Of a stretch of 64,000 nucleotides of DNA, positions 4,660-60,086 are shown piece by piece. The stretch comes from Macrocystis pyrifera (Eukaryota > Sar > Phaeophyceae > Laminariales > Laminariaceae): NCBI GenBank assembly GCA_031763025.1, contig JASSKH010000021.1:7644611-7708610 (forward strand), written 5' to 3'. A program made the position numbers and the translations under genes. Position 1 is the stretch's first letter; each line of letters starts with the position of its first letter. The notes under the pieces are model-generated. The model was not told the DNA's origin, searched no databases, and worked only from the letters and a program-made list of their open reading frames with translations.

Positions 4660-4915
4660 CCACACCAGAAAACAACCCAATCCATTGGAAGCTGTCAGCC
4701 ATTGCGAGTCCGCCTCACAAGCAGTTCTTAGCAGGATGCAGCTCACCCTTCATGCAACTCGCCCAACACCTCACGGTGCTTCGCGCTTGGTGCAACCATT
4801 GTCTGCCTGGTCGGTGAAAACCCGGCGTGCTCCTTCCCGGCTGAGGGTAGGGATGCTACTCGTAGGGTCTATGGTCGTACGACTACGACCAAGCATGACA
4901 CGAGTATACCCCCCA
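4660..4915 (+). repeat. Family A repeat, partial, poly(C)-ended
   Basis: Carries the family A core (GCTGTCAGCCATTGCGAGTC, CTCACGGTGCTTCGCGCTTG, TCGTACGACTACGACCA) and ends near GAGTATACCCCCC. Diverged at many sites from the 17 and 31-34 kb copies. Confidence 0.75.
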
Positions 4916-5128
4916 CCGTCTGCGCTGCTCCGTCTCGAAATGGATGTGATCAATGTTCAAATGACGAAGGCAAGCTCCAAAAGAGTACACCCCCCCTCCC
5001 CCCCCCTCTGTTTATGGCCGTACGACTACCGGCATGTATGGCATGATCAGACACCCCGCCCTACCGCCAACTCCCCCGTGGGTCTATTGTCACACGACTA
5101 TGGCCACGCATGATATGAAGTACCCCCC
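4916..5128 (+). repeat. Family B fragment plus two truncated family A tails
   Basis: 4916-4998 is a family B fragment (GCTCCGTCTCGAAATGGATG) ending GAGTACACCCCCC. 5015-5128 holds two short copies of only the family A end (TATGGCC-TACGACTA-CCATGCATGA type), the second ending AAGTACCCCCCCCCC. That C tract lies about 20 bp upstream of the acceptor of the exon at 5159. Confidence 0.65.
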
Positions 5129-5158
5129 CCCCTGCTTCCGCCTTCATCGTGCCGACAG

Positions 5159-5239
5159 GTCTTGCCAGGTCCCCCGTGACGCGCGCGGCGTCGACTTCGT
5201 CGGGGCCCCGTATGATGCTGCCGCTGGCGCCTTTCGCAG
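5159..5239 (+). CDS. Internal exon, unknown protein
   Basis: A tract of C and T leads to CCGACAG, giving a phase-2 acceptor; the exon ends CGCAG|GTGAGG, a strong donor in phase 2. The 26 complete codons are very rich in G/C at position three and encode a segment containing ARGVDFVGAPYDAAAGAF. The FVGxPYD run faintly recalls the ureohydrolase (agmatinase/arginase) N-terminal signature, but the glycine and arginine residues that should follow are absent, so no function is claimed. An alternative acceptor lies 10 bp downstream. It is probably an early exon of the gene that includes the 7176 exon, although phases require at least one unseen exon between them. Confidence 0.5.
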
Positions 5240-5613
5240 GTGAGGCAGTCATTTCAGCCGTGATTGGCGTCGCGACTGCGGGGATATTCAGGAACCATCC
5301 CCTGGTTTCAAGGGTTGTTGAGTGAGGGTTAGTGTTGGGGAAAGAGATTCGCGGCTCATAATGCGCTCTAACCGCTGGCGCTTTTCGTGGGCCAATCAAC
5401 CGCCCCAAGTCAACCAGCCGCGACTCGCGGGAAATGATAGGGTAATCACGCCTACTACGTCGGCGAGGTTCGAAGAGTATGTAACGGGCAATCATAATCA
5501 CGGCTACACGTGTATTACACACGTAGCAGTGATATAAAGATTCGCTGAAAATTATCTACACCACGTGTATCATACGTTGTCGTGACTACCGGTACGCAGA
5601 CGAGGTTCAACTT
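5240..5613. other. Presumed intron, nothing recognised
   Basis: Starts with the GTGAGG donor of the preceding exon. No further coding-like frame or repeat recognised before MITE-1. Confidence 0.4.
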
Positions 5614-5721
5614 TTACAGGGGTCCATAGTTAACGGGACCAAATTTTGTTAGTAAAAATAGGCGAATACATATGTTTTTATGTACACCATAGGTCCTGTT
5701 AACTATGGACCCCCGTAATAG
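5614..5721 (+). mobile_element. MITE-1 copy b
   Basis: Same architecture as copy a; the right end GGACCCCCGTAATAG is intact, the left end diverged (TTACAGGGGTCC). Confidence 0.8.
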
Positions 5722-5930
5722 TCGTATTGAAATTCGCGGGAAATGATACCAGATACCTGGCAGTCTCGACTACGCAGGGAAAATTTGAACATTCACGGAA
5801 AATGATACCTGGTAGTCAAGACTTTCTTACGATGGGCGGGATTTATACCACGACTATTAGTAGATACGGGGACTTTTAAAATTCCATCCCCGGGTTTCAG
5901 ACCTTGCGTTTCGAGTCGGGGTGCGGGGGT

Positions 5931-6070
5931 CGGGGGGGGGATTCATGTCATGCATGGTCTTGGCTGTATGACCGCAGACCCTCGCACCCCTACTATGTCG
6001 AAAACGGAGCACGTCGGGTGTTCACCGACCGGGACAGACATTGCTCGCACCAAGGGTCGCTGTTCGCTTG
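5931..6070 (-). repeat. Family A repeat, partial, minus orientation
   Basis: Begins with a G run (poly(C) on the minus strand) followed by TCATGCATGG and the CGGAGCACGTCGGG core. Truncated after the GCACCAAG motif. Confidence 0.7.
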
Positions 6071-6394
6071 TAGTGACACTGCAGGAGCTGGGCGCAGGAG
6101 GAGTGGGGCGCGATGGAGTTGCTTTCTGAAACAGCGAGAAACGGACACAGATAGAAGAGAGGGTCACACAGAGAGAAGAGAGGGCCACACGCTGGTGTGC
6201 AACGCGCGAAATGTCTGGCCGCAGCATAACTGCTGGTCGGCTGCTACAGAGCGGCGGCACTGCTGTTCGCGTGGTCTTTATACTCGTCTGCCGTAATAAC
6301 GTCGTCCCGCGCTGTGTCGGCTTGGTATTACCAAACGCGGCCACCCGACAACAATGCTCACCCCGGACAGAGCACCACAGATCCCCAGTTAGAT

Positions 6395-6597
6395 AATCTC
6401 AGGATAGTGCTGCAGCGCAGATATGCAGTAGTCCTGATCGGTATTTTCGACAGCTCATGCTGCCGGGTGGAAGTGAGCCGAACATTCTGTACCGTGTTAT
6501 GATCTAGTACGAGTTTCCTGGGTTGGATCTGTACTTCACAGATCCTGCGCAACGTCTCATAACGGCAAGTTGGGATACGAATGATCTAGATGATCTA
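6395..6597 (-). mobile_element. MITE-3 copy, minus orientation, broken
   Basis: Contains the family core on the minus strand (GATCCAACCCAGGAAAC and a CTAGATCAT run). Directly followed by a MITE-1 copy, suggesting interruption by insertion. Confidence 0.6.
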
Positions 6598-6600
6598 GTA

Positions 6601-6697
6601 CGGCGGACCATAGGACCTACGGTACACACAACAACCTATATGTTTCCCTATTTTTACTAACAGTATTTGGTCCTATTTACTTCTAGCCCCCGTAATA
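6601..6697 (-). mobile_element. MITE-1 copy c
   Basis: Reverse orientation (CCTACGGTACACACAACAAC, then ATTTGGTCCTATTTAC). Left end truncated; lies inside MITE-3-like sequence. Confidence 0.75.
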
Positions 6698-7045
6698 ATC
6701 TTTCTGCAGTTGCAAGGTGTGATCTGTATGATCTGGATCTTTGCACCGCATCTCGTAACGGTAAATCATAACATCTTGTGACCTAGATCGTTGCTTACTC
6801 TATTACGGGGGACCATAGTAAATAGGACCAAATATTGCTAGTAAAAATAGGTTAAAATATGGGTTTTTATGTATACCGTAGGTCCTATTAACTATGGACC
6901 CCCGTAATAGTGATCTAAATCAGTGATCTAAATCGTACCCTAGACCGCCATCTACATCGTGATGATCTGCATCTATAGATCATGATCTATAGATCGGAAT
7001 CTACAGTAGAGATCTACCGTATCTGCATGGTGATCTACTGTACAA
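6698..7045. mobile_element. MITE-3 fragments with nested MITE-1 copy d (6802-6910)
   Basis: GATCTGTATGATCTGG and GATCTACATC-like fragments of MITE-3 surround a near-perfect MITE-1 copy. That copy begins TATTACGGGGGACCATAG and ends CCCCCGTAATAG, with its flanking TA consistent with a TA target duplication. Confidence 0.65.
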
Positions 7046-7078: not shown

Positions 7079-7134
<56 letters not shown>

Positions 7135-7884: not shown

Positions 7885-7984
7885 TTGATCCCATCTGTAC
7901 GGCTGTGTATCTGTACGGAGCGATTCCACAGGCACTATAGCGGGCAACCGGCACTACTCAACCGGCACTATATATAGAGGGACC

Positions 7985-8096
7985 ACTATTACGGGGGGCC
8001 ATAGTAAATAGGACCAAATATTGTTTGCAAAAATAGGGGAAAATATAGGTTTTTGTGTGTACCGTAGGTCCTATTTACTATGGTCCACCGTAATAG
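7985..8096 (+). mobile_element. MITE-1 copy f
   Basis: Complete copy, CTATTACGGGGGGCC to GGTCCACCGTAATAG, about 100 bp from copy e in the opposite orientation. The spacer carries repeated ACCGGCACTAT motifs. Confidence 0.85.
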
Positions 8097-8865
8097 AGTG
8101 TGTAGTTCGCAGCTTTTTTTTTGGCGAGACGAAGATAATTATGGTGGATGTCCTCGCATTACGTAGCTAAAGTCCCTCAAATCTTGCCCTTGGCCACAAA
8201 ACAGACTAAAAACTGTCCCGACGGGAAAAAAAAACGAGTACGTGCAAATGACAAGTGCACCGCAGCCAGTACATACGCTTACGCAACGGAACGGCACTAC
8301 GGGCTGTGTGCTTGCTCTGCCACCCCCTCATCACCTGCAAACCGAATAATACCAGAAAGCCTACCCCATGGTACAAGACTTTCCTCCGGGAAGTGCCTAG
8401 GGGGATGGCGCAAGGACGAAATAATACTCGTACCAGTCATGAAATGAAATACCTGCGTATCTGTTTGGAACTGCATCCACCCATCATTAATGTGTACACA
8501 CACATATTTTTGGGGACAGACTTGTGTACTGCTGTTTGTGGAATTAGTGTGGGATCATTACTACAATAGTATAAAAGAGAGTACTGGTAAGTGGGTATCG
8601 ATGCTGAACAGATGGGTCGCGGCGCTCAATTCAATGCTTGCGGCGTCAACGTAAGTACACAAAAGTTGCGTGATGTTGAGGTTGCTACATAATACTTTGT
8701 GACCGGCCGAGTAAAGTACAGCGTATACTATTAATAGATGAAAAAAATAAAAATAAAACGAAGCTGTGAGATCGAAAATTTACTCCAAATATATGCCTGG
8801 TATATAAATTCCCGAAAAGTGAACGTTTCTTGGCGCTCAGGGTAAAAGAAAGGTTTCACAGATAC
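8097..8865. other. No gene seen
   Basis: Several 60-100 codon frames (8148-8569) overlap each other in different frames without codon bias. No repeat family recognised. Confidence 0.4.
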
Positions 8866-9600: not shown

Positions 9601-10302
9601 TTTTTCTTTACTCCCAAGTACTATGGGAGCATCTGTGAAAGGTTAAGGTTCGAACGCACGCCACACGTGAGCACGCCCAAACTCCGTGGCCTTTCTTAAG
9701 ACAACAACTTGTACAGGTGTCATACATGCATGCACGTAAACAGGTCAGAAGAAAAAGAAAGGTGGACGTACTGGTACAACATGAATCAAAATTTGAAAAA
9801 AAACAAAAAAAAGGCGAACAACGTGGTGGTCGAACCCCGGAAACGAAAACGTTATCGAGCGCAGTCAATCATGTACACTACAGTGCTCGTACGGCTTGCA
9901 GGTTGAGGTTTTTATGCATTATAAAACACACATGACAGGGTCTCTCAGAGTAGCTTATACTGGTACGACGGCATGTTTAGCAGCATACTGCTGTAAAATA
10001 CCATGTGGTATGATACGACAGCAGAAGATACGCGTACTCCGCCAAAAGGAGCTTGCACTGCTGCCCTTTCAGCTGGCTCTAGGATCTATCGGTCACCGGT
10101 GTAGGACCCACAGCAGTTCGTGCTTCGAGTACAGCATGTTTTAAACGAATGCTGCTGTGCACGACGATTGTACGAACGATTTGTTGCACTAGACTCGTAC
10201 GTATCGATCCAGAGATGATCGGTACGAACCAAAAAATGCCGGTCACGGTCCCACACTGCGGCACGTACGTGCATAGGCCAATGCCATTGTCAACAACGGG
10301 CA

Positions 10303-10411
10303 TTATTACGGGGGACCATAGTTAATAGGACCAAATATTGTTAGTAAAAATAGGTAAATATATAGGTTTTTGTGTGTATCGTAGGTCCTATTTACTATGG
10401 TCCCCCGTAGC
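10303..10411 (+). mobile_element. MITE-1 copy g
   Basis: ATTACGGGGGACCATAG to GGTCCCCCGTAG; near-consensus core. Confidence 0.85.
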
Positions 10412-10861
10412 AGTACTGAGAGTACGGCGCCCTTCTGCAACATGCGCATACAGCAGTAGTAGTACACTCACTGCCTGCTGCTGCTGCTGTTGGCGCCACT
10501 GTGCTGAGCACAGCTGGAACAGTGGCAATGTTGGATGACACGCAGCAATACGCAGAAGAAGAAACAGCAGTGAGGTGATTGATGGTATTAATAGCGGCGT
10601 GGTCCTGTGATCGATCGCAGTCTCCGATAGGGCAACTACCCGCAGTACGATCAGCCGTACGCGCAAGGTTCTGCCCGCTGCTGCTGCTGCTGCTACTGTT
10701 GGGCGGCAGGGTTGTAGTGCTGTAGGCAGCTGGAGGTAAGCACGCTCTGTGCACCGCTGCTATTGTTGTCTGGGCTGTGGGCCGTGCTCCGTGCAAATAA
10801 ACACAAAAAATGTACCGGTACGCCAGCCTGGGTACGTACCCACGAAAAGCAATAAGGTCTC
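10412..10861. other. No gene seen; CTG trinucleotide runs
   Basis: CTG/CAG runs at about 10470-10490 and 10678-10700 make the local minus frames Ser/Gln-rich. No splice-bounded exon found. Confidence 0.4.
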
Positions 10862-11374: not shown

Positions 11375-12479
11375 GCATGTGCTGTAATCCTGTTCTATCT
11401 GATGCGGACTGCGAACGGTGATCCTTCGAACAGGCTCATGCCCGCGGGATGCTTGCTTGCCTCATCCTGAACCTAGACCGCATGACTTGTACGCTCACGA
11501 TCTATAACATAACTACTATTAATAAAATGTATATATACGAACAACCGAAAAACAGAATGAGAAACGGAGAACGAAGGCGAAAAATAACGGAACTCCAGTA
11601 CGCAAGGGAACGGTATCACGGACTGTGTGCTATACCATCCCTTATCACGTGCGAACCAAACGATCCAAAAAAATAGCCATGGTCTGGTACGAACTTCCCA
11701 ACAAGAGAAGAAAAGGATTTTTTACGAAGGCCAAAAAGAAAGGAACTAGGAAGCAAAAACACGAAACAAGAACTAAGAAACAATCATATGAGCTGAGGGC
11801 GCAGATGCCGAGCAAGTCCGGAGGGAACAAGCTTGCTGTTTGCTGATAGTCCTATGTCCACCGACCGACAAGGACGACCAAAATGGCGGGAGAAAAAGAG
11901 GACAAAACACGAAAGTAGAGACTGAAACGACAGAACAAAAAAGCCGCAAAAAAAAAAAAAAATATGTAGAGGGTGACGCAGCAGATAAATGGTCGAACAA
12001 TGGCAATACGGGGTAGTCTATTCGATGACGAAATTGTGTACCAGGTACCAGGTATTGTTTTTCTCGGGGAGGCGACACGGTTTGAACGATTCGCCAAGGC
12101 TAACGACAAGACAAAACGACACCACACTACACACCTATTAATATAGTGGCCATATTGTAAAGTAAACTAATGGGGTGGTATTTTTGGGCGTACCTTGGTA
12201 TTTACCAAGAATGATTTTTTTTCCCTTCTTCTTTGTAAGTTTTTTTTTGCTTGGTTTTAGTAAGCCCCTGCATGGATCTCGAAAATAAATATCAACAGTA
12301 GTGGAATGTCGGATTTTGTTTTTTACGTGCACCCCCGCGTTTGCAACATTTTTTTTAATTATTTTTTAACCATTTTCGGAAGCGAGTAGCTAGGTTTTCT
12401 TGGCCGGCTAAACATCTGGCCTCACTTTTATTTTTGTTTTTGGTCCCCCGCCTCGTTGCGGTCGGCTGTTGCAGTAGTA
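11375..12479. other. No gene seen
   Basis: Lys/Arg-rich or Phe-rich frames come from A- and T-runs. Nothing supportable; the region may be an intron between the 7176 and 12946 exons. Confidence 0.4.
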
Positions 12480-12668
12480 GTAGGCTGCAGCTCGCCCTTC
12501 ATGACACTCGCCGATCGCCTCACGGCGCTTCGCACTTGTCGCAAGCAATGTCTATCTGTCTGGTCGATGACAAACCCGACGTGCTCCGTCCCGGCATTGT
12601 AGGGATGCGAATATCTTCGGTCACGCACGCACGCGACTACGGCCATTCATGGCATGAGTACTCTCGCC
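12480..12668 (+). repeat. Family A repeat, partial, diverged
   Basis: Core motifs CTCACGGCGCTTCGCACTTG and CGTGCTCCGTCCCGGC are present. It ends at ATGGCATGAGTACTC without a long C tract. Confidence 0.65.
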
Positions 12669-12719
12669 CCCTCGCCATAGGCGACGAAACAGGAAGGGGC
12701 TGAAATTAGCAAAAGAAAA

Positions 12720-12865
12720 AAAGGACGTAATATACTGCATATGGAAAAAACGTAATGAGCGCCCTAATGATGGAGGTGTATATGCTGCTAGTAGGAGTAG
12801 GAACGGAGCTCCGTCTCGAAAGGGACGCGTGGTCAATGGTCAAATGACTGAGGCAACTAAGTACG

Positions 12866-12901
<36 letters not shown>
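12720..12901 (+). repeat. Family B repeat with 35-base poly(C) end
   Basis: Contains GGAGCTCCGTCTCGAAAGGG and ends AAGTACGCCCC with about 35 C. The tract ends 45 bp before the acceptor of the exon at 12946 and appears to supply part of its pyrimidine tract. Confidence 0.8.
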
Positions 12902-12903: not shown

Positions 12904-12945
12904 ACACGCCTACCTTCGTCCTTCGCCACCGCTTTCCTCTTTCAG

Positions 12946-13974: not shown

Positions 13975-14101
13975 GGGCGGAGGCGATGCAGGGTGGTCGG
14001 AGGGGTGCACTATGTCATGCATGGCCGTTAGTCGGACGACCATAGACCCTCGTATACCTTCATTACCGGGACGGAGCACGTCGGGTTTGCGTGGGGGGGG
14101 T
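13975..14101 (-). repeat. Family A repeat, partial, minus orientation
   Basis: GTCATGCATGGCCGTTAG through GGGACGGAGCACGTCGGG; the C-tract end (G on plus) is reduced. Confidence 0.7.
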
Positions 14102-17119: not shown

Positions 17120-17690
17120 GGAGGGGGGGGGGTGTACTCGATAGGAGAGATGTACTCGATCTCATGCATGGCCGTAGTCGTATGACCATAGACCCTCGCA
17201 TGCCTACAATGCTGGGACGGAGCATGTCGGGTTTTCACCAACCAGGCAGACATTGCTTGCGCCAAGCGCGAAGCGCCGTGAGGTGTCCGGCGAGTCGCAT
17301 GAAGGGTGAGCTGCATCCTACTAAGAACCGCTTGTGAGGCGGACTTGCATATGGATGACAGCTTCAATGAGTTAGTTTAATTTCCGGTGTAGCCACTTCC
17401 AGAGACAGCAATGGGAGTACTATGTAACTGCCTCTTGGGTGCCTTACCTTGAACACTACGTGATACGATCAATTCCCTTGTGCAGAGTAAAGGTTTTTTA
17501 CCTCGCACGAATGATCTAACTCGACGACCAGCTGTGGACGACCGCCAAAAAAAAAAAAAAAAAAAAAAAACGGTACCCTGGATGTCTAGCTCACGTAGTG
17601 AGCGGCATGTTTTACAGTGTCGATGCCAACCGACGCCAACCCAACCCATATATAATATAAATATATGAGGGGGGGGGGGGGGGGGTGATC
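17120..17690 (-). repeat. Family A repeat, full length
   Basis: Minus orientation. The plus strand starts with a G run then TGTACTCGATAGGAGAGA, and continues through the core, CACTTCCAGAGACAGCAATG, an A22 run at 17547-17569 and AACCGACGCCAACCCAACCC, to a second G run at 17669-17687. It is flanked by homopolymers at both ends. The 127-codon minus frame inside recurs in other copies and is a repeat ORF. Confidence 0.85.
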
Positions 17691-18884: not shown

Positions 18885-19309
18885 AGGTCGATCGATTACC
18901 AACCCTAGTGCGTAAGCCTTATAACACTATTCCGTACGTACATACATGTGTGGAGCTGGCGTCTGTCTGGTGTTTCTTCGGGTATTTTTCTGGTAAATCA
19001 ACTTCTCTTTGTGCGTTTGATAGCTTGTCAATTAATTTTCTGCGTGATCGCTCAGACGGAAAAAAAGGTTCAACCCAGTCCTCCTCCTGTTCGATAATTT
19101 TCACGTCGTTTCTGGTCCGGATATTTCAACACTTGGGGTACGTATGCATCTATACGCAACGTACGTGAAACTATTATTGTTAAGGCTGTGAGGCGACGCA
19201 TCTCAATAGTCACTAACTAGTCATGAATCAGACTACTAGTTAGTGGTTTCCCGGAGGTACCGATTATCAGATCTATTTTTCATTTTTGGGCGGGGGCCCC
19301 TCGGTTGAT

Positions 19310-19690
19310 CGTTATGTACGACCGTTCAACGGCCATAAACAAGGATCGTTGACTACGATTGTTCAACGATCGGAAGAAAGGATCGTTCAATACGATGGTT
19401 CAACGATCATAAAAAAGGGACCGTTCAAATACGATCGTTCAACAAATCGGAAAAAGATAACGTTCAAATACGACCATTCAACGATCGGAAAAAGGGACCG
19501 TTCAAATCCGATTTTCAACAACCAGAAAAAGAGATCATTAAAACGATCGTTCAACGATTGTAGAAAGGGGTCGTTGAAAACGATCGTAAAACGATCGTAA
19601 AAAAGAAGATCGTTGAAAACGATCGCTCAACGATCAACCAACGATCGGAAAAAGGGACCGTTGAAAAGGATCTTTCAACAATCGCTATTA
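19310..19690. repeat. GATCGTTC satellite, block 1
   Basis: Degenerate units of about 35-40 bp built from GATCGTTCAACGATC (a near-perfect palindrome), a GAAAAAGGG spacer and CGTTCAAATACGATC. Confidence 0.85.
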
Positions 19691-20060
19691 TTATATACCA
19701 GGTATAATAACTAATAGTGGATCGTGAAACAAATAACAGCGTTCAACCCCGGTGGCTTGGTGGGCGGTCCGCGTGCCTGTCAAGATCAATTTCGTGGGTT
19801 CAAGTCTCACCGAGTGCATGCTCATAGGGACTTTTTCTTGCATAAAGAATTGATAAGCGGAAAGCGCGAAAGCGTGAGTTGGCTACATTCGATGAAAATC
19901 GACGAGCAGTGGGAATGCTGAACCCTATGCGCGACAAAAAACTAAAGGCACGTACGGGGGGGAGAAGGGACGACACCTGTGACCACGGCTTGTCCAGAAG
20001 ATCGTCCAGGGTAAAACCTCCTGCGAGTGGGCTGGAATGTAAAAGTGATGAAAAAAAAAA
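19691..20060. other. Interruption of the satellite with a tRNA-like element at about 19750-19830
   Basis: 19750-19830 on the plus strand has a GTGGG-TTCAAGT-CTCAC T-arm and GGCTTGGTGGGCGGTC upstream, but no matching acceptor stem. The rest shows no gene. Confidence 0.45.
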
Positions 20061-20335
20061 AAAAAACGATCGTTAAAAAAGGGATCCTTCAACGATCGGA
20101 AAACAGTACCATCGTGAAAAAGGATCGTTCAACCATCGGAAAAGTGTTTGTTCAAATACGATCGCTCAACGATCGGAAAAAGGGATCGTTCAATTGAATG
20201 CGATCGTTCAACGATCGGAAAAAGGGAAAACATAATGCATTGTTCAACAATCGGAAATAATAGTGATCGTTCAAATACAATCGCTCAAAGACCGTGAAAA
20301 AGGATCGTTAAATAAATATGTGGTCGTTGAGGCAT
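20061..20335. repeat. GATCGTTC satellite, block 2
   Basis: Same unit as block 1, with runs such as GCGATCGTTCAACGATCGG. Confidence 0.8.
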
Positions 20336-20339
20336 TCTA

Positions 20340-20545
20340 CGATAGAGTAGGTTCCCCCTAAAATTTCTGAGGCTCTTCACTTGACCTTAAGGAGCTCCAC
20401 ACCTCCCCCGAAAACTGACTTCAGCAAAAATCAAATTGCATCCCGATGAATAAATCCACGACCCAAGTATACAAAAACAACGTCATTTTTCGAAACAAGA
20501 TTGACATTCCGACGATTTTCGGCTGAGAAATCCCGTCATTCAGAA
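20340..20545 (+). repeat. Family E repeat, inserted in the satellite
   Basis: About 205 bp matching 29445-29655 nearly throughout (GGCATTCTACGATAGA, TTGACCTTAAGGAGCTC, AAATTGCATCCCGATGAATA, GACATTCCGACGATTTT). Confidence 0.8.
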
Positions 20546-20579
20546 ATTTGGTTAGCGGTATTGTACTACCTCTATCATC

Positions 20580-22110
20580 GTGGAATGCGTCCGTTCAACG
20601 ATCGGAGAAAAGGGCCGTTCAGATGCGATTGCTCAGCGATCGGAACAGGGGGGGGGGTCGTTTAACGATCGGAAAAAAACGGGGACGGTCATAAAGGATC
20701 GTTCAACAGTCGGGAAAAGGAATCGTTCAAATGCGATCGTTCAAGGATCGGAAAAGGGGAAAAGAGATCGTTCAACGATCGGAAAAAAAGGGGATCGTTA
20801 AAAATGATCGGAAAAAGTGATCGTGAAAAAAGATCGTTCAACGATCGGAAAACGGATCGTTCATGGGATCGTTCAACGATCGGAAAAAAAAAGAAAAAGA
20901 TATCGTTCAACGATCGAAAAAGGGGGTCTCGTTAACAAGGATCTCGTTCAGCGGTCGATCGTAGAAACGGATCGTTCAAATGTGATCGTTCAACGATCGG
21001 AGAAAAGGGATAGATAAAAGCGATCGTTCAACTATCGGAAAAAAGTGATCGTTCAACAAGATCGTTCAACGATCGTAAAAAAGGATCTATGAATACGATC
21101 GTTCGTCGATCGGAAAGAAAGGATATTTGAAATGCGATCGCTCAACGATCGGAAAAAGAGATCGTTCAAATACGATCGTTCAACGACCGGAAAAAGGGGT
21201 GTAGTTAAGAATGATCGATGAACGAGCAGAAAAAGAGATCTTTGCAAATGATCGTTCAACGATCTCGGAAAAAGATGGCTTTTTTAAAAAAAAGGCGATC
21301 GTTCAACAATTGGAAATGGGGAAAAAGAGGTCGTTCAACGTTCGTAAAAAAGGATCGTTACATACCATTGTTCAACGATCGGAAAAAGTTATCGTTTAAA
21401 AGCGATTGTTCAACGATCAGAAAAAGATATCGCCCAAATCTGATCGTTGAAAACGTTCTTTCAACAACCGGAAGAAAGGATCGTTAAAAACGATCGTTCA
21501 ACGAGAGATCGGGAAATAAATGGGATCCTTCACAAGAGGGCCGTTCAACGATCGGAAAAGGAGATCATTATAAATAATACGATCGTTTGAACGACGGGAA
21601 AAGGTTTAGGGACCGTTAAAAACGATCGTTCAACGATCGGGAAAAAAAGAGATGTTTGAAGAGGGTCGTTCAACGCGATCGAAAAAGGAAATAATTCAAA
21701 TACGATCGTTCAACAACCAGAAAGGGGTCTATCAGAAAAAAGGAGGGATAGTTAGAAACAATCTTTCAACGGTCGGAAAAAAAATATCGTTGACATGGAT
21801 CCTCAAACGAGATCGGAAAACGGATCGTTCGAATACGATCGTACAACGATCATGAAAAGGCATCGGTGAAAACAAAAAAAAGGGATCGTTATAAACTTTC
21901 GTTCAACGATTAGAAAAAGGGATCGTTGAGAAGGATCTCCTTCAACGATGATCGGAAAATGGATCGTTCAAATAAATACGATCGTTCAACGATAATAGTA
22001 AAAAAGGATCTTTAAAAAAAGATCGTTCAACGATTGTCAAAGGGGATCGTAAGTAAAAAGGATCGGTCAGCAAGATCGGAAGAGGAAATCGTTAAAAACG
22101 ATCGTACAAG
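20580..22110. repeat. GATCGTTC satellite, block 3
   Basis: About 1.5 kb of the same satellite, more than 35 degenerate units. Every frame across it (60-90 codons, rich in RS, FND and ER) is a product of the repeat. Confidence 0.9.
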
Positions 22111-28697: not shown

Positions 28698-28944
28698 ACG
28701 CCTTTTCGCTCGCCGTCGAGAATGGTCACGCCAGAAGCGACCAATTCAGTGACATCCATCATGCCAAAGCAAGCTTTGCTGGTCAAAAACGCGTCCTATC
28801 ATGTAACCCTCGCCTCTGCCGCACATGGTCAGGCCAGAAGAAACCGATCCAACGTCATCGCTTGTGTTAAGACAAGCTCTTTTGGTCCGCCACCACTCAC
28901 GCAATACCTATACCTCCCCCTCTTCTCGCGCAAAACAGGAAGGG

Positions 28945-29130
28945 GATAAGATTAGCGAAAAGTTTCTATGTAATAAACGGAAACAACGCGATGAAGTGCC
29001 CAATTGTTGGAGGCGTCTCTATTTGGAGTAGGAAGGGTGCTCCGTCTCGAAAGGCGTGCGTGGTCAATAGTCAAATCACTCAGGCAAAGCAACAAATGAG
29101 TACACACCCCTACCCCCCCCCCCCCCCCCT
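28945..29130 (+). repeat. Family B repeat with poly(C) end
   Basis: GTGCTCCGTCTCGAAAGGCG core; ends ATGAGTACACACCCCTACCCC with a long C tract, about 50 bp upstream of the 29178 acceptor. Confidence 0.8.
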
Positions 29131-31311: not shown

Positions 31312-32402
31312 CGAGGGGGGGGGGGGGTGTACTCGATGGGAGAGATGTACTCGATATCGTGCATGGCCGTAGACGTATGACCATACCCTCGCATCCCTAC
31401 AATGCCGGGACGGAGCATGTCGGGTTTTCACCCGACCAGGCAGACATTTCCTAGCACCAAGCGCGAAGCGCAGTGAGATGTCCGGCGAGTCGCATGAAGG
31501 GTGAGCTGCATCCTACTAAGAACCACTTGTGAGGCGGACTTGCATATGGATGACAGCTTCAATGAGTTAGTTTAATTTCCGGTGTAGCCACTTCCAGAGA
31601 GAGCAATGGGGGTACTATGCAACTGCCTCTTGGGTGCCTTACCGCGAACACTACGTGATACGATCAATTTCCTTGTGCAGAGTAAAGGTTCTTTACCTCC
31701 CACAAAAATGATCTAACTCGACGACCAGCTGTGGGCGACCGCCAAACCCAAAAAAAAAAAACGGTACCCTGGACGTCTAGCTCACGTACGTAGTGCGCGG
31801 CATGTTTTGCAGTGTCGTTGCCAACCGACACCAACCCAACCCATATATAATAATAATATGATGGCGGGGGAGGGGTGTACTCGATGGGAGAGATGTACTC
31901 GATCTCATGCATGGCCGTAGTCGTACGACCATAGACCCTCGCATCCCTACAATGCCGGGACGGAGCATGTCGGGTTTTCACCGACCAGGCAGACATTACT
32001 TGCACCAAGCGCGAAGCGCCGTGAGGTGTCCGGCGAGTCGTATGAAGGGTGAGCTGCATCCTACTAAGAACCGCTTGTGAGGCGGATTTGCTTATGGATG
32101 ACAGCTTCAATGAGTTAGTTTAATTTCCGGTGTAGCAACTTCAAGAGACAGCAATGGGAGTACTATGTAACTGCCTCATGGGTGCCTTACCTTGAACACT
32201 ACGTGATACGATCAATTTCCTTGTGCAGAGTAAAGGTTCTTTACCTCGCACAAATGATCTAACTCGACGACCAGCTGTGGGCGACCGCCAAAAAAAAAAA
32301 AAAACGGTACCCTGGTTGTCTAGTTCACGTAGTGAGCGGCATGTTTTACAGTGTCGTTGCCAACCGACGCCAACCCAACCTATATAATATAGCGGGGGGG
32401 GG
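31312..32402 (-). repeat. Two full-length family A repeats, head to tail, minus
   Basis: 31312-31860 and 31866-32402 carry the same order of blocks as 17120-17690, each led by a G run and TGTACTCGATGGGAGAGATG. The 148-codon minus frame at 31664-32110 spans the junction and is a repeat ORF. Confidence 0.85.
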
Positions 32403-32649
32403 GGGCATAGTGATTTGAATCTACAATGGGCCCAAAAACCTGGGGCCGGGCACTGGCACAATATGCTCTTCGCGACGATGAACGTTTACAAATATAATGT
32501 TTTCGACGTTGTGTTTTCCAATAAAAAAAATGTTGCAGCATGAGCTTCCAGCGCCGATCGCGCATGAACATTCCCAGAAATATGCAGTAGAAGAGAAAAA
32601 AAAACAGAGGAAACGACAACAAAAATGCTACCTGGTACGTACTACTGAG

Positions 32650-33321: not shown

Positions 33322-34347
33322 CAATCCCCCCCCCCCCCCTATAGTATGTACCTGACATGGGTATACGTTGGGTTGGCGTCGGTTGGTGACGACGCGGTAA
33401 GATACGCCTCTCACTGCGTGAGCTAGACAAACCAGGGTACTCGTTTTTCAGTTTGTTTTTGGCGGTCACCAAGGCTTGGCGGTCGAGTTAGATATTTTTT
33501 TGTGCGGAGGTAAGCTTCACTTCGCACAAGGGGGATGATCGCATCGCGTAGTGCGTACTATGGTAAGACACCCACGAGGCAGTTACACAGTAGTACCCCC
33601 ATTGTTTTCTCTGAAGTGGCTACACCAGAAAATAAATCAATTCATTGACGCTGTCATCCATCTGCAAGAAAATCCGCTTCAAAAGCAAAGAGGTTCTCAG
33701 TAGGATGCAGCTCACCCTTCTTGCCACTCGTCCAACCCCTCACGGCGCTGCGCGCTCGGTGCAAGCAATGCCTGCCTTGTCCGACTACGGCCATGCATGA
33801 TATCGAGTACACCCCCCCGCACGCCTATATAGTATGTATAGTGTAGGTTAGATTGACGTCGGTTGGTAACGATACCGTGAAAAAATGCCGCTCACTACGT
33901 GAGCTAGACAACCAGGCAACCGTTTTTTTTTTTTTGTTTTGGCGGTCGGTCACAGCTAGTGGTAGAGTTAGATAATTTGTGCGGGGTGGAGAACCTTCAG
34001 TCCGCACACGGAGAATGATCGTATCACGTAGTGTTTATGGTATAGCACCCAAGAGGCAGTTACATAGTATCCCCATTGCTGTCGCTGGAAGTGGCCACAT
34101 CGGAAAGTAGATTAACTCGTTGAAGCTGTCATCCATATGCAAGTCCGCCTCACAAGCAGTTCTTAGTAGGATGCAGCCCACCCTTCATGCAACTCGCCAG
34201 ATACCTCACGGCGCTTCGCGCTTGGTGCAAGCAATGTCTGTTTGGTCGGTGAAAGCCCGACATGCTCCGTCCCGGCATTGTGGGCATGCGAGGGTCTATG
34301 GTCATACGACTACGGCCATGCATGATATCGAGTACCCCCCCCCCCCC
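33322..34347 (+). repeat. Two full-length family A repeats, head to tail, plus
   Basis: 33322-33813 and 33814-34347, each starting with a C run, TATAGTATGTA and the GACGTCGGTTGGT block and ending ATCGAGTAC with poly(C). The pair is inverted relative to the two minus copies 0.9 kb upstream. Confidence 0.85.
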
Positions 34348-34352: not shown

Positions 34353-34600
34353 TCAATTAATTCGATGCTGTCACCCACATGCAATGACATTCGCCTCAAA
34401 AGCGGTTCTTAGTAGGATGCAGCTTACCCTCCGTGCGACTCGCCGGACACCTCACGGTGCTTCGCGCTCGGTGCAAGGAATGTCTGCCTGGTCGATGAAA
34501 ACCGACGTGTTCCGTCCCGGCATTATAGGGATGCGAGGGTCTATGGTCTACGACTACGGCCATACCGGTACATGAGTACACCCACCCCCCCCTCGCCCCT
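34353..34600 (+). repeat. Family A repeat, partial, next to an acceptor
   Basis: Third consecutive plus copy. It ends CATGAGTACACCCACCCCCC, 30 bp before the acceptor at 34615. Confidence 0.8.
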
Positions 34601-37124: not shown

Positions 37125-37195
37125 GGAGGGGGGGGTGGGGGGGGGGGGTACTCATGATCATGCATGGCCGTAGCCGTATGACCATAGAGGGGGGG
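37125..37195 (-). repeat. Family A end, minus, truncated
   Basis: G run then TACTCATGATCATGCATGG and GCCGTATGACCATAG only; lies 65 bp into the intron after the 37061 donor. A short duplication (GCGGACGGTCG) links 37095 and 37300. Confidence 0.65.
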
Positions 37196-37554
37196 GGGCG
37201 GAGCGTCGTCACTGCAAAGGATGTCGATATGACTGAATTGCTTGTGATGCTTTTAAAACTACAAAAACAAAAAATGAATGTGGAAGAGTAACGCCTTTAG
37301 AGGGCGGACGGTCGAATTGGCCACCCATCGCTTTTAAGAGGGGGGTGCTGCCACTTCTGTGGTCGGAAAAAAAAATGCTTCTCCATTTTTGCGGGCTTGC
37401 TTCCGCCAAAAATCAAGCAACGACTGAGTCTCGCTGTCGTTCCCAAGGAGGGAAAAAGCCTAGCTGGTAAGGCTGTGAGCTGGCTGGCTATGGTTCGTCG
37501 ACTATTCGTAGTTGTTGCTGTGGCTGGCTATAGATGTCGGTATTTGTACAGTAG

Positions 37555-39930: not shown

Positions 39931-39939
39931 GTAGTATAT

Positions 39940-40087
39940 GGAGACAACGCAGTGAGCACCCCAACTGTTGGAGGTGTCTATACTTGGAGTAGGAGCGGTG
40001 CTCCGTCTCGAAAGGGATGCGTGGTCAATGATCAATGACTAGGGCAAGCAAGAAATGAGTACGCCCCCGCCCCCCCCCCCCCCCCCC
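39940..40087 (+). repeat. Family B repeat with poly(C) end
   Basis: GGTGCTCCGTCTCGAAAGGG; ends ATGAGTACGCCCCCGCCCC. Directly abuts a family A copy. Confidence 0.8.
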
Positions 40088-40089
40088 AT

Positions 40090-40389
40090 TGCTGTCTCTG
40101 GAAGTGGCGGCCACACCAGACTTTAAATCAATTCATTGATGCTGTCATCCATGCGCAAGAGAATCCGCCTCTAAAGCGGTTCTTAGTAGGATGCAGCTCA
40201 CCCTTCATGCGACTCGCCCAACACCTCACGGCGCTTCGCGCTTGGTGTTCGCGCTTGGTGCAAGCAATGTCTGCCTGATTGGTGAAAACCCGACGTGCTC
40301 CGTCCCGGCATGGTAGGGACGCGAGGGTCTATGGTCATACGACTACGACCATGCATGATAATGAGTACACCCCCCCCCCCCCCCCCCCA
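40090..40389 (+). repeat. Family A repeat, partial, next to an acceptor
   Basis: TGTCTCTGGAAGTGGC to AATGAGTACACC plus 18 C, ending about 50 bp before the acceptor at 40441. Has a small internal duplication (TTCGCGCTTGGTG twice). Confidence 0.85.
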
Positions 40390-43799: not shown

Positions 43800-44045
43800 C
43801 GCTATGTGGTGGCATGAAGTGGTGGCACTAAGTGGTGGCACAAAGTGGTGGCGCTAAGTGGTGGCGCTAAGTGGTGGCACTAAGTGGTGGCGCTAAGTGA
43901 TGGCGCTAAGTGGTGGCGCGAAGTGGTGGCGCTAAATAGTGGCACTAAATAGTGGCGCTAAGTGGTAGCGCTAAGTGGTCGCAATACGTGGTTGCACTGA
44001 GTGTTGGCACTAGGTGGTGGATCTAAGTGGTAGCTCTAGGCGGTG
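43800..44045. repeat. 13-bp minisatellite, about 18 units
   Basis: Unit TAAGTGGTGGCGC/AC, immediately upstream of the terminal exon of gene 4. Confidence 0.9.
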
Positions 44046-44098
44046 GAACTACTGCGCTGCAATATAACTATATCTGTGTCGCGGTTTTGCGACCACAG

Positions 44099-44179
44099 GG
44101 CCTGTACATCTCGTGGGTGAAGAATCGGCACGGACACTGTGTGAACTGGATGTCCAAAGAAAAGAACGGTTTAACGTGA
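44099..44179 (+). CDS. Gene 4 terminal exon
   Basis: Acceptor GCGACCACAG, phase 0, 26 codons then TGA (44177-44179). Encodes GLYISWVKNRHGHCVNWM and ends KEKNGLT. Phase matches the previous exon. It gives gene 4 at least six exons over 9.6 kb. The predicted product runs LADxWT domain, basic/disordered, Gly/Glu-rich, helical, beta-like, C terminus. No typical polyadenylation hexamer (AATAAA) was seen close by. Confidence 0.68.
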   Translation, partial: GLYISWVKNRHGHCVNWMSKEKNGLT

Positions 44180-44401
44180 AGAACACACACGCAGTCTAAG
44201 CACTACCTTGCGCAAGCCTGTATTACCACCTGCCAAGGGTGTATTCACCCAACACCATTTCCGATAACAGGGTTTGTCGAATCGTGCCATCCTTCGCCTC
44301 GTCGATAAAACGTGCGGGCCAACGTATACCGAAGTCGAGCCTCTCTTTTCCTTGCCCCAACCGAACGTTTTTTCTGCATTTCTATCTCCCCCGTCGTCAA
44401 G

Positions 44402-46624: not shown

Positions 46625-47085
46625 TCGCCCCCCCCGTCCCTCTCAAAGAATACGAACCCTCTCAGGACAGCGACGGTGTCCATCTGTGCTCCACCCCCCA
46701 CCAGATACTACGAGACACCCCGCACGAGATTTCTCCTCTCAACCTATGCGAGGGGCTATGGACATACAACTACGGTCATGCATGACATGAGCCCCCCCGC
46801 CTTCCCAACGAATACCAAAACCTTTCATGACAGCGATGGTGTTGATCTGCACGCTGCCCCCCACCGGATACTACTAGACACGCCGCACGGACTTTCCATC
46901 CTCATCCTCCCATCACCCGCCTCCCCCCCCCCCCCGCCTTCCAAACGAACACCAAAACCTTTCATGACAGCGACGGTGTCGATCTACACTCTATCCCTCA
47001 CCGAATACTACGAGACACGCCGCACGAGGCAAGCCGTCCGTTTCGCCAGCCTGTTCTCGCGAGCGCAGCTCCTCCTCCAGCGGTG
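46625..47085 (+). repeat. Exon cassette in three tandem copies
   Basis: Each copy has a C tract, a CAAAACCTTTCA or AACCCTCTCAG acceptor-like stretch, and an exon-like body beginning ACAGCGACGGTGTC (46666, 46830, 46967). A family A end (TACGGTCATGCATGACATGA) lies between copies 1 and 2. In the frame with the best codon bias, copy 3 stays open (SLTEYYETRRTRQAVRF); copy 2 has TAG where the others have GAG. Confidence 0.7.
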
Positions 47086-47819: not shown

Positions 47820-48175
47820 CACACGTCGGACAGATCAGATCATCTACAGATAGATCATCTAGATCAGCTACATCCTAACCTGCCGGTATGAGATGCTGTG
47901 CAAGGTCTGTACAGCACAGACCCAACCCAGGAAGTACGTGCTAGATCATGCAGATATATATTTCTCGCTACTCGGAAACTCGAGCTAGATCATATAGATC
48001 ACTGAAGATGTGTCTGCCGTGCAATATCTGGACCATGAAGTATTACGGGGGGACCATAGTAAATAGGACCTACGGCAAACACAAAAACCAATATATTTCC
48101 CTATTTTTATTAACAATAGTTGGTCCTATTTACTGTGGTCCCCCGTCATAAGAATCGACGATCTGTCCGAGGCGT
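47820..48175 (+). mobile_element. MITE-3 copy interrupted by MITE-1
   Basis: CACGTCGGACAGATCAGATC start, CCTAACCTGCCGGTATGAG core, then MITE-1 inserted at 48041-48150, after which CGATCTGTCCGAGGCGTG completes the MITE-3 end. The two MITE-3 ends are imperfect inverted repeats. Confidence 0.8.
48041..48150 (-). mobile_element. MITE-1 copy i (nested in MITE-3)
   Basis: GTATTACGGGGGGACCATAG to GGTCCCCCGTCATAAG; near-complete. Confidence 0.85.
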
Positions 48176-50949: not shown

Positions 50950-51115
50950 CAGCGGGGGCGGGGGGTATTCACGTCATGCATAGCCGTAGTCGTATGACCA
51001 TAGACCATGGCATCCCTACAATGCCGGGACGGAGGCACGTGGGGTCTGTTTTCACTGGACCAGGCAAACATTACTTGCACCAAGCGCGAAGTGAAACATG
51101 AGGTGTTCGGCGCCC
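50950..51115 (-). repeat. Family A repeat, partial, minus
   Basis: GGGGGTATTCACGTCATGCA, CGTAGTCGTATGACCATAG and ACATTACTTGCACCAAGCGC. Confidence 0.75.
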
Positions 51116-51136: not shown

Positions 51137-51245
51137 TGACGGGGGACCATAGTAAATAGGACCTACGGTACACACAAAAACCTATATATGTACCTATTTT
51201 TACTCGCAATTAGTTGGTCCTATTTACTACGGTCCCCCGTAATAA
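51137..51245 (-). mobile_element. MITE-1 copy j, ending 8 bp before an acceptor
   Basis: GACGGGGGACCATAGTAAAT to ACGGTCCCCCGTAATAAG. The next bases, ACTGCAG, form the putative acceptor of the exon at 51254. Confidence 0.85.
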
Positions 51246-51550: not shown

Positions 51551-51650
51551 GCGGGGGGGGGGGAGAGAAAGGGTGACTCACTCTTATGCATGGCCGAAGT
51601 CGTATGGTGACCGTAGACCCTCGCATCCCTACAATGCCGAGACGGAGCCC
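51551..51650 (-). repeat. Family A repeat end, minus, truncated
   Basis: GGGGG run, TCTTATGCATGGCCGAAG, CGGAGCCCGTCGG. Confidence 0.7.
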
Positions 51651-51674
51651 GTCGGATGTTTACAAAGCACAGCG

Positions 51675-56215: not shown

Positions 56216-56387
56216 ACGATGTTGCCACCGGGGTCAATTTGTAAAAACTTTGAATACGAACGAGTATACGCCTGACTCTCTATTTCTCTCTCCCTGAAAC
56301 GAAAACACGGTATACTCATGGCTCGGTCGCCGACCCATCCCCCCCCCCCCCCCCCCCCCCCCGCCCCACATCCTCTCATCTTCGAAG

Positions 56388-56547
56388 GTTACCCGTGCGA
56401 TCGAGGATCCACTTGTCCAGCGGCAGCTTGAACACGCCCAAGATTTCCAACGGCGTTTCGAAAGGACGACGGATGATGGGGAGCGTGTACCCTCTTCGGG
56501 GTTGGGACAGGCTGGCCAGGATATACACAGACAACCGTTCTTGTTGA
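56388..56547 (+). CDS. Gene 6 probable terminal exon
   Basis: A 22-base C run plus a C/T tract leads to CTTCGAAG. The frame that continues the phase 2 donor at 55042 reads LPVRSRIHLSSGSLNTPK, then MMGSVYPLRGWDRLARIYTD, stopping at TGA 56545-56547, with about three-quarters G/C at position three. The other plus frame (VTRAIEDPLVQRQLEHAQDF) is open to a later TGA. The minus strand of the same 160 bp is equally coding-like (GYTLPIIRRPFETPLEILG, then FKLPLDKWILDR) and also has a poly(C) acceptor context, from the family A end at 56590. Phase agreement favours plus, but strand is not settled. Confidence 0.42.
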
Positions 56548-56589
56548 TGTCGAGAAAGTGAGCCGCCACCGGGGCAACACATTTTTTTC

Positions 56590-56665
56590 TAGGGGGGGGG
56601 GGGGGGGGGTACTCATTATCACGCATGGCCGTAGTCGTATGACCATAGACCCGCGTTTTTTTCAC
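56590..56665 (-). repeat. Family A repeat end, minus, truncated
   Basis: 19-base G run, TACTCATTATCACGCATGG, GTCGTATGACCATAGACC. Confidence 0.75.
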
Positions 56666-56821
56666 TGGGAGGGGGGGGGTGAAATCTCGTGTATTTTTTT
56701 CACGCAAAAGTACGTCCTCGTCTAAAAGGCGGTTTGAAGTTCGAAGAGACGGCCCCCTCTCGTAACTTGGCAAATAGTTACAATTTGAACGGCTATTTCT
56801 AGCATTGGTCCGAATTTTCCA

Positions 56822-58094: not shown

Positions 58095-58650
58095 GTTACC
58101 GCATCACACGGGTGATAAGATGAGACTACCGTATCACACGGGTGATAAGATAACACACTACCATATCACACGGGTGATGAGATACTACCGTATCACACGG
58201 GTGATAAGATATCACTACCGCATCTCACGGGTGATAAGATAACACTATACCGTATCACACGGGTGATGAGATAACACACTACCGTATCACACGGGTAATA
58301 AGATCATACTACCGCATCACACGGGTGCTGATATATCCCTACCGTATCACACGGGTGGTGAGATAACACACTACCGTATCATACGGGTAATAAGATAACA
58401 CTACCGCATCACACGGGTGCTGATATAACACTACCATATCACACGGGTGATGAGATAACACACTACCGTATCATTCGGGTGATAAGATAACACTACCGTA
58501 TCACCCGGGTGATAAGATAACACACTATCGTATCACACGGGTGATAAGATAACGCTACCGTATCACACGGGTGATAAGATAACACTACCATATCACACGG
58601 GTGATACATATAAGACTACCGTATCACACGGGTGATAAATATAACACACA
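58095..58650. repeat. Hairpin minisatellite, about 17 units
   Basis: The unit, about 30-33 bp, is TACCGTATCACACGGGTGAT followed by AAGATAACAC. Each holds the inverted repeat TATCAC-ACGG-GTGATA. A lone reverse copy lies at about 28347-28385. Confidence 0.9.
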
Positions 58651-58758
58651 CTCTCGGGGAGACTTTCCAGCCTGATTTTCTCGACAACGGGGAGAGGAAC
58701 ACAAACGCCGAGCGACGCGTTCCTTGGGAAAGGGCCTCGGCAAGACACTCTCCAAAAA

Positions 58759-58864
58759 CTATTACGGGGGACCATAGTTAATAGGACCTACGGTACACAC
58801 AAAAACCTACATATTTTATTATTTTTACTAACAACATTTGGTCCTATTTACTATGGACCCCGAA
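58759..58864 (-). mobile_element. MITE-1 copy l
   Basis: CTATTACGGGGGACCATAG intact; right end cut short (GGACCCCGAAA). Confidence 0.8.
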
Positions 58865-58934
58865 ATACCACGTTTTTTTTTTGTTCGTTTTCGGTGCCCA
58901 CGCTTGTTGTGGAGAAAGCGAGCCCCTAAATTCA

Positions 58935-59105
58935 GCCCAGGGGGCGCGTGCGTGCTCATTTGCTGCTCGCCTTACTATAGTAGTTGTCTGGCCGATGACC
59001 ACGCATCCCTTTCGAGACGGAGCAACCGCTACTACTCCAAAACGAGAAAAGATGCCTCCAACGTTTTGGGGTGTGCCACCTCGCGTGTTGCCACTCTGGA
59101 TGTCT
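58935..59105 (-). repeat. Family B repeat, minus
   Basis: GGGGGCG...TGCTCATTTGCTGC start, CATCCCTTTCGAGACGGAGC core. Confidence 0.75.
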
Positions 59106-59365
59106 GTCAATATAAGGAACGTTTGGTATTCATATTGATATATAATAGTTCCGTATATTTCCGGCCGGAGTAGTATACGCTATATAGGGGCGGGGGGGGG
59201 GGTTTCAAGGACCTATCGCGGAGTCACGAAACACACGAAATGCTGACGGAAACAGCCCACTGCCCCGACACCTCATCCTGCTGCCCTAACCCTAGCACTC
59301 TGCCCCCCCGACTGTCACGCCTCTTTTTTCCCCCCCGACTGTGTACAAGAACATCGCCATCACAG

Positions 59366-59470
59366 AGCGAGTACACCTGGCGAGGCGTCAACAAAGAAGG
59401 GACGGTGCAAGTTCTACGCTCAAGGGGCGGCTCGCAGAAAACGTTCATGCGCTACACGGAGACTCTCCAG
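59366..59470 (+). CDS. Gene 7 exon, unknown domain
   Basis: C/T-rich tract then CCATCACAG; exactly 35 codons, phase 0 at both ends: SEYTWRGVNKEGTVQVLRSR and GGSQKTFMRYTETLQ. The donor CTCCAG|GTCAAG is weak, and reading through stays open for some 80 codons, but the phase fits the next exon. Basic, strand-like sequence. An alternative acceptor TGTACAAG (59350) would add five residues. Confidence 0.6.
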
Positions 59471-59664
59471 GTCAAGAGCTGTTTTTTGTTTCTCTCGCCC
59501 TTCGTCCAGCTTTCGGGGAATGTTTATCGCGGCATGCGCAACACATATGACGTTATGAGCTGTTGGCTTCGACTCGTGAGATATTGGTCACAAAATCAAC
59601 GGAACAAGTGTACAGCATACCTTGGCTGCATATTGCTGTCATTCACTCAGCTTAAGCCCTTCCA

Positions 59665-59765
59665 CCTCCCGCTGGTGCTCCGTCTCGGAACGGATGTGTG
59701 TCGATGGTCGAATGATTAACCCAGTCAACAATCGAGCGCACACACTCCTCCCCCCCCGCCCCTCC
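59665..59765 (+). repeat. Family B repeat, short
   Basis: GGTGCTCCGTCTCGGAACGG and a CCTCCCCCCCCGCC end. Confidence 0.6.
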
Positions 59766-59939
59766 CGCCGGCAGTACATCGTCTCCTTGAAACGCAAATT
59801 TTAGTTGTTTCATCCCCTCGTTGCATTTGCTTTTCTTCCACTCCGAAATGGTTGGAGCCTGTCCTGCGACCACAAACAAAAAAATCTAGTGGCAAAAGGT
59901 TATGAGGTCCGGGTGCTGGTGTTATCCGCTCAGGTCAAG

Positions 59940-60040
59940 TTTCCCACCCCCCTCGAGGGCGCATCCGTCCCGGCATTGTAGGGATGCACGGGGCAATGGT
60001 CATACGACTACGGCTATGCATGACATGTGTACCGCCTTGT
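59940..60040 (+). repeat. Family A end, plus, next to an acceptor
   Basis: GTCCCGGCATTGTAGGGATG, GGTCATACGACTACGGC and ATGCATGACATGTGTACC. The poly(C) is reduced; the acceptor follows 50 bp later at 60086. Confidence 0.7.
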
Positions 60041-60086
60041 TCGCTCGTCTTGAACGTCCCGGCCCCGTCGACTTTTTCATTCTCAG

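Follow-up and report, generated by a model that had tools for sequence, protein, structure and literature searches.

The 64,000-nucleotide stretch of Macrocystis pyrifera DNA considered here (contig JASSKH010000021.1, hereafter the window) carries numerous copies of two repeat families, A and B, whose 3' ends read GAGTAC followed by a run of C and lie, on the same strand, just ahead of predicted 3' splice sites. The question raised by this locus is how that arrangement arose. A first-pass annotation of the window had proposed two explanations: the elements are directed to C/T tracts next to acceptors, or they bring the pyrimidine tract with them and help to create 3' splice sites in the manner of introners. 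Our analysis supports targeting, although it is oligo-C, on either strand, that is targeted, and donors are approached as well as acceptors; the initial observation as a whole is partly confirmed. Families A and B very likely form one retrotransposition system that inserts strand-specifically, mainly into oligo-C, and accumulates at the 5' and 3' ends of introns, its tail pointing to the exon.

Repeat ends and the relationship between families A and B

The genome searched comprises 537,376,219 bases in 223 contigs and contains 7,741 occurrences of GAGTA followed by nine C (3,849 and 3,892 on the two strands) versus 51 of the reversed pattern (26 and 25). Within the window, ends of A or B are found on the same strand ahead of all six acceptors named for them (5158, 12945, 29178, 34615, 40441 and 60086), at distances of approximately 20-50 bp. 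The common end (G/A)AGTAC(A)C(n) is present in both families, but it is looser than this formula: AAGTAC occurs at 5118, TAAGTACG before 12866, and GTGTACC without a C-run before 60086.

The two families had been regarded as unrelated, which is refuted by an alignment of their last 65-75 nt. With GAGTAC excluded, this alignment scores 51, versus a mean of 14.4 (SD 2.6, maximum 28) for 2,000 dinucleotide shuffles. When family B is traced upstream in one locus (L002), it leads into a broken reverse transcriptase (RT) frame, and the B tail at this locus ends in GAGTAC and a long C-run. The RT piece (72 amino acids) matches RVT_1 with an E value of 9.6e-7 and 29.2 bits, slightly below the cut-off of 29.6, and the frame matches R2 proteins in the PDB with an E value of 3.4e-9; the RT evidence for family B comes from this one locus and its duplicate (L008). 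The B copies of the window match the C-terminus of the long interspersed nuclear element (LINE) at the protein level, with a best E value of 6.8e-13 in a search of the window and the collected loci only. A genome-wide search with the LINE C-terminus returned 14,002 first-look candidates, and scoring of the best 150 of them showed all to be at least 90% identical, the longest open frame among the best 150 matches listed being 858 amino acids.

Family B is 5'-truncated with a constant 3' end. Complete copies of family A are approximately 500 bp in length, and the 61 A copies that retain a 3' end span 29 to 508 nt (duplicate loci counted). Variable 5' ends combined with constant 3' ends are a hallmark of target-primed reverse transcription. 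Judged by sequence, family B corresponds to the 3' end of an abundant, mostly 5'-truncated LINE, that is, a retrotransposon without long terminal repeats (non-LTR), and family A is a non-autonomous element of approximately 500 bp with the LINE 3' tail, probably mobilised by the LINE machinery. No Rfam family matches the family A copy at 31860-32420 to an E value of 1, and ARAGORN detects only a tRNA-Lys at 2394 in the window. Since no head of RNA polymerase III (pol III) type, derived from tRNA, 5S or 7SL RNA, was found, we describe A as a non-autonomous LINE-dependent element and not as a short interspersed nuclear element (SINE) in the strict sense.

The RT family with the top RVT_1 match (L129) was considered as the LINE partner and rejected; approximately 2 kb past its RT is without a GAGTAC-poly(C) end. 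Ten frames of the window compared with Pfam gave nothing above the curated cut-off. Two pairs of loci on small contigs, L001/L005 and L002/L008, are similar duplicates (L002/L008 are 95% identical over the LINE part), and the C-run differs in length between L001 and L005, indicating either that such runs are unstable or that the contigs are haplotypes.

Insertion into C-runs

Chaining of blastn matches in the window and 128 loci yielded 114 copies (77 A and 37 B). The 5' flanks were evaluated in 99 of the 114, leaving out duplicated or overlapping loci (L005, L008, L026, L032, L036, L038, L065 and L070) and copies for which fewer than 35 bp of 5' sequence were available. The 35 bp ahead of the copy contain a C-run of at least six in 60 of the 99 cases: 12/13 A heads, 33/55 truncated A copies, 11/18 truncated B copies and 4/13 other B copies, a class in which some boundaries are probably subfamily limits and not true ends. 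No copy (0/99) has a G-run in these 35 bp, and C-runs of at least six occur at 2.5% of 20,000 random positions.

The same asymmetry is observed genome-wide. Seven C are found 4-34 bp upstream of 1,736 of 2,632 exact A heads and seven G upstream of one, while the pattern of very short copies (C8-N6..30-GAGTAC-C7) occurs 195 times versus twice for its G8 version. These are reverse-strand counts, used since overlapping starts within a single run are counted separately among the forward matches; the forward numbers are 1,049 for C8-N6..30-GAGTAC-C7, 12 for the G8 version, 2,620 for heads, 10,915 for heads with C7 and 3 for heads with G7. At four loci (L069, L004, L018 and L052), fragments whose match to the element is limited to its terminal 9-22 nt are embedded in C-runs.

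The flanks of the copies are mostly C-runs on both sides, and a target site duplication inside a homopolymer has no visible limits. Nesting is seen at 40070-40388, where the C-tail of a B copy has received a family A copy: the B copy (39936..40087, plus strand, tail GAGTACGCCCCCGC(18)) is joined by a 5'-truncated A copy (40085..40388, plus strand) that ends in GAGTACA-C19 ahead of the AG at 40440-40441. The copies have been inserted into one kind of target and in one orientation, with a preference that is strong and not absolute.

The cassette array at 46.6-47 kb contains a family A end, as the first-pass annotation had stated, and consists of three related plus-strand units with a C-run at the matching place, only one of which has an A tail before the run. 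Copy 1 (46628..46665) has C8 and then ...CAG|GACAGCGA without an element; copy 2 (46744..46798) has an A tail of approximately 48 nt (ATGAG, with TAC missing) right before C7; and copy 3 (46923..46935) has C13 at the matching place without an element. A cassette copy with the C-run but no element is a paralogous empty site, of which this array offers one case. A dense array of C-runs (9-46) beside a kinase exon in L054 (600-1240) may mark a place where C-tails have been inserted repeatedly.

Position and polarity near exons

All 12 acceptors named in the window do fall on the G of an AG, but they have little coding support as judged by codon score. With 0.37 per codon across 51 codons, the frame after 7175 clearly exceeds the 95th percentile for open non-coding frames (0.24), and that after 12945 scores 0.22 per codon over 52 codons, near this threshold; the scores of the other ten are lower, negative, or based on 13-16 codons. 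For this reason, the exon analysis was not built on these acceptors. One of them, 44098, may be repeat-borne and not part of a host exon: the sequence at 44098-44180 resembles, by eye, L129 at approximately 2620-2695, downstream of an unrelated RT element.

Exons were instead anchored by Pfam homology to kinesin (105 of 131 matches) and kinase (31 of 137), chosen regardless of C-runs, which gave 136 exons in 72 gene clusters. Three segmental-duplicate kinesin exons were left out, as were matches with flanks that were shorter than 300 bp or not retrieved. An inferred acceptor was assigned to 102 of the 136 exons and an inferred donor to 114. A run lying between two close exons was counted for both, and a run was classed as having no recognised element if neither a copy of A or B nor the motif (G/A)AGTAC-C lay within 60 bp of it.

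Copies of A and B within 400 bp of an exon point their tails toward it in 38 cases and away from it in 5, versus 12 and 9 beyond 400 bp. The 38 comprise 24 antisense copies downstream of exons and 14 sense copies upstream. Counted by exon side, of the 36 sides at which a copy lies within 400 bp, 31 show tail-to-exon orientation and 5 the opposite; counted by gene cluster, the numbers are 24 toward, 3 away and 2 ties (p 5e-5). Within 150 bp, 9/10 upstream copies are sense and 13/14 downstream copies are antisense. The association of copies with exon sides thus exceeds chance on the 136 exons, and it includes a donor half, the antisense copies after donors, that is absent from the first-pass annotation, in which the acceptor half only was seen.

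C- and G-runs follow the same rule. Runs of at least eight within 400 bp of the 136 exons number 53 C and 11 G upstream and 13 C and 60 G downstream, and 94 of these 137 runs are without a recognised element. Such element-free runs have the same polarity as the copies: within 150 bp, 49 are oriented toward the exon and 8 away, and by gene cluster there are 27 toward, 3 away and 2 ties (p 8e-6). Within 150 bp, an upstream C-run is present at 27 of the 136 exons and a downstream G-run at 25, versus 7 and 4 for the opposite arrangements, while T-runs are nearly symmetric (15 and 13). C8 or longer lies within 100 bp of 17/102 acceptors (G: 1) and G8 or longer near 17/114 donors (C: 2). Even with the runs masked, the sequence approximately 25-50 bp before acceptors has a C fraction of 0.34 and a G fraction of 0.20, and that after donors has 0.32 G and 0.21 C.

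Because the element-free runs share this polarity and the elements sit in C-runs in one orientation, the most economical reading is that the elements follow the tracts. The suggestion that they bring the tract is not supported, given the C-runs on the 5' side of copies together with the element-free runs at the same places. Their proposed role in creating 3' splice sites likewise lacks support: many copies adjoin donors, which have no 3' splice site to be created, and only one of 108 copies combines GT at its 5' boundary (within 4 nt) with YAG at its 3' end.

Proposed mechanism and alternative explanations

In the mechanism that we propose, the element RNA would end in ...GAGUAC-C(n), the G-strand of a C-run target would be nicked, and the resulting oligo-G 3' end would pair with the C-tail and prime reverse transcription. 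Insertion within a C-run would leave C on both sides, making the site reusable and allowing elements to nest head to tail. Ahead of their 3' splice sites introns of this genome carry C-tracts, and past their 5' splice sites G-tracts, also where no element is recognisable; the C-tracts probably act as polypyrimidine tracts and the G-tracts as G-run splicing enhancers. Combined with the polarity of these tracts, the strand rule of insertion would yield copies that are sense ahead of acceptors and antisense past donors, with their tails exon-ward.

Several observations weigh against this reading. No C7 is present 4-34 bp upstream of 896 of the 2,632 exact A heads (one strand), and 39 of the 99 local copies have no 5' C-run of at least six, which we attribute to decay or looser targeting. 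Cleavage of the target is putative, and the mobilisation of A by B is proposed from the shared tail. The exon set, and with it the polarity near exons, represents two protein families only, with inferred splice sites. In a genome-wide proxy based on the donor word AGGTGAGT, G8 follows within 30 bp in 54 cases versus 55 for the reversed control, while C8 does so in 30 versus 11 (the forward number and the reverse control were used; the unused numbers are 300 and 280, and 138 and 71). This proxy is insensitive: the word accounts for 2/114 inferred donors, neither with G8 nearby, and it is absent from all 10 donors that do have G8 within approximately 40 bp. Finally, the element-free runs may hide decayed or ultra-short copies.

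An introner-like origin, in which the branch point would come from the element body and the pyrimidine tract from the C-tail, with an AG further downstream turning into the acceptor, would account for the sense copies that end 20-50 bp before six AGs of the window and for the 9/10 sense copies within 150 bp upstream of the homology-anchored exons. We nevertheless consider it quite improbable, as donors have antisense copies next to them no less often, runs of C in which no element is recognised have the same polarity, the required pair of boundary dinucleotides is almost never present, and the C-runs on the 5' side of copies are left unexplained. That last feature is also what selection by itself cannot account for. 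If insertion were indifferent to position, and G-runs before acceptors or C-runs after donors were purged as damaging to splicing, polarity would be strong within 400 bp and fade beyond, as observed, yet as a full explanation this seems doubtful. The purging of wrongly oriented copies close to splice sites may add to targeting, and it probably acts together with targeting and not in its place.

The complementary arrangement of the tracts suggests another possibility, namely that the G- and C-tracts at the two ends of an intron base-pair once transcribed and bring the splice sites together like a zipper, with elements being kept as one strand of it. This is very improbable given that the tracts do not co-occur in excess: for runs of at least six in 32 introns, a small sample, both tracts are present in 2, C only in 7, G only in 9 and neither in 14 (Fisher p 0.44). 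It is scarcely credible that the pattern is due to chance, with C-runs being common and acceptors having been picked for following them. The poor coding support of most of the 12 acceptors and the lack of enrichment in the donor-word proxy would fit such an explanation, but the effect holds at gene level in exons selected by homology and regardless of C-runs.

An extension of oligo-C targeting, which we consider unlikely, is that the LINE system also makes the tracts. Aborted target-primed reverse transcription would copy little beyond the C-tail and lengthen the C-run each time, a process comparable to that of telomerase at telomeres, occasionally leaving 9-22 nt of the element in the run. 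If so, the element-free C- and G-runs at intron ends would be retrotransposon footprints, and splice-proximal sequence would have been rewritten genome-wide while staying compatible with splicing.

Targeting of oligo-C at intron ends suggests a "safe landing" in genes, in which the LINE and its parasite reach tract-bearing intron ends and leave a tract beside the exon; this may help to explain the tolerance of many intronic elements in kelp genes. It links the target specificity of a retrotransposon to the sequence next to splice sites, and it cautions against taking element-rich acceptors for introner-made splice sites.

Comparison with known systems

SINEs with a LINE-derived 3' tail are short and non-autonomous and have this tail in common with the LINE. 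Family A is similar in all three respects but differs in that no pol III-type head was found (no Rfam match to an E value of 1). In Ectocarpus, the relevant passages of PMC12477816 describe RTEX-N1_Ec32 as a non-autonomous element of approximately 600 bp with more than 6,000 copies, the 3' end of which is conserved in autonomous RTE-X LINEs and the 5' region of which is given as of undetermined origin. Its resemblance to family A is one of description, and those passages describe no C-run targeting for it.

Non-LTR retrotransposons specific for repeats and microsatellites fall into the restriction-like endonuclease clades CRE, R2, R4, NeSL and some HERO, together with the Tx1 and R1 clades. 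Microsatellites as targets, and Togen as an element specific for (TG)n, are treated in parts of PMC4640811. As far as those parts describe them, elements specific for simple repeats resemble the kelp system in that an RT-bearing element inserts into a simple repeat. The kelp elements have variable 5' truncation, a fixed 3' end and a single orientation. Unlike Togen and similar elements as described there, their target is a C homopolymer located where introns begin and end, flanking exons at either side.

Introners constitute the intron, with splice sites at their ends. The kelp elements share with them a dispersed, mobile and intron-associated nature, but splice-like dinucleotides at both ends were seen in a single kelp copy of the 108. 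Target site duplications and inverted repeats of introners are treated in sections of PMC9860276. In the open-licence literature, we found nothing on introners in brown algae or on poly-G/poly-C at algal intron splice sites, and, judged by title and opening of the abstract, nothing relevant on non-LTR poly-C insertion in introns or on G-/C-runs in intron splicing. We regard the kelp system as a target-specific non-LTR retrotransposon with its parasite, distinguished by the targeting of C-runs and intron ends.

Copies of A and B in the window

Three plus-strand copies precede the AG at 5157-5158: a 5'-truncated A copy (4648..4906, blastn chain), a fragment of B with the tail GAGTACACCCCCCCTC(9) (4927..5006) and an A 3' end (5077..5132) that reads AAGTAC and has a C-run to 5132, 24 bp before the AG. 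Ahead of the AG at 12944-12945, an A copy (12478..12661, plus strand) is directly followed by a B copy (12673..12901, plus strand) consisting of LINE C-terminal codons, as matched at the protein level, and the 3' end, then C36. The AG at 29177-29178 follows a plus-strand B copy (28933..29129) with the tail GAGTACACACCCCTA-C17. A head-to-tail series on the plus strand leads to the AG at 34614-34615. It starts with C14, a near full-length A copy and then GAGTACACCCCCCC (33326..33811, with a C-run on either side), continues with a full-length A copy ending in GAGTA-C14 (33844..34348), and closes with a 5'-truncated A copy (34364..34592, tail GAGTACACCCAC(8)) right after this C14 tail. The AG at 60085-60086 is preceded by a decayed A end (59964..60035, plus strand), the GTGTACC of which has no C-run.

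On the minus strand, a full-length A copy (17123..17685) lies between C17 on its 5' side (17669-17685) and C10 on its 3' side (17123-17132). The full-length A copy that served as query A (31872..32405) has C12 on its 5' side (32394-32405), with another full-length A copy head-to-tail behind it (31315..31852). Only the last ~45 nt of A are present at 37128..37198, between C10 and C12. A B copy at 1087..1236, matched at the protein level, ends in GAGTA-C25, and blastn chains identify further A copies at 5945..6054, 14012..14088, 50974..51112 and 51576..51663.

Both halves of the exon pattern are found at a predicted plus-strand exon (56388..56557; AG at 56386-56387, donor AAA|GTGAGC), which is without codon-score support. 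It is preceded by C24 (56339-56362), and 34 bp past the donor there is an A end in antisense, with G18 (56592-56609); this end belongs to a 5'-truncated, minus-strand A copy (56592..56679) with GAGTA-C18 and with C9 (56671-56679) on its 5' side.

Other features of the window

A repeat of approximately 105 bp with the inverted ends GGGGGACCATAGTAAATAGGACC / GGTCCTATTTACTATGGTCCCC is present in both orientations and resembles a miniature inverted-repeat transposable element (the label is our own); copies are located at 2565-2684, 5609-5728, 6798-6917, 7984-8103, 10301-10420, 48048-48151, 51141-51236, 58750-58861 and 60351-60470. The region 19300-22050 is a diverged array of units around ATCGTTCAACGATCGGAAAAA, often spaced by approximately 38 bp. 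The tRNA-Lys(ttt) gene occupies 2394-2467 on the minus strand, and three minisatellites with units of 11, 13 and 15 bp lie within 3 kb of one another (42798-43138, 43761-44072 and 41236-41505).

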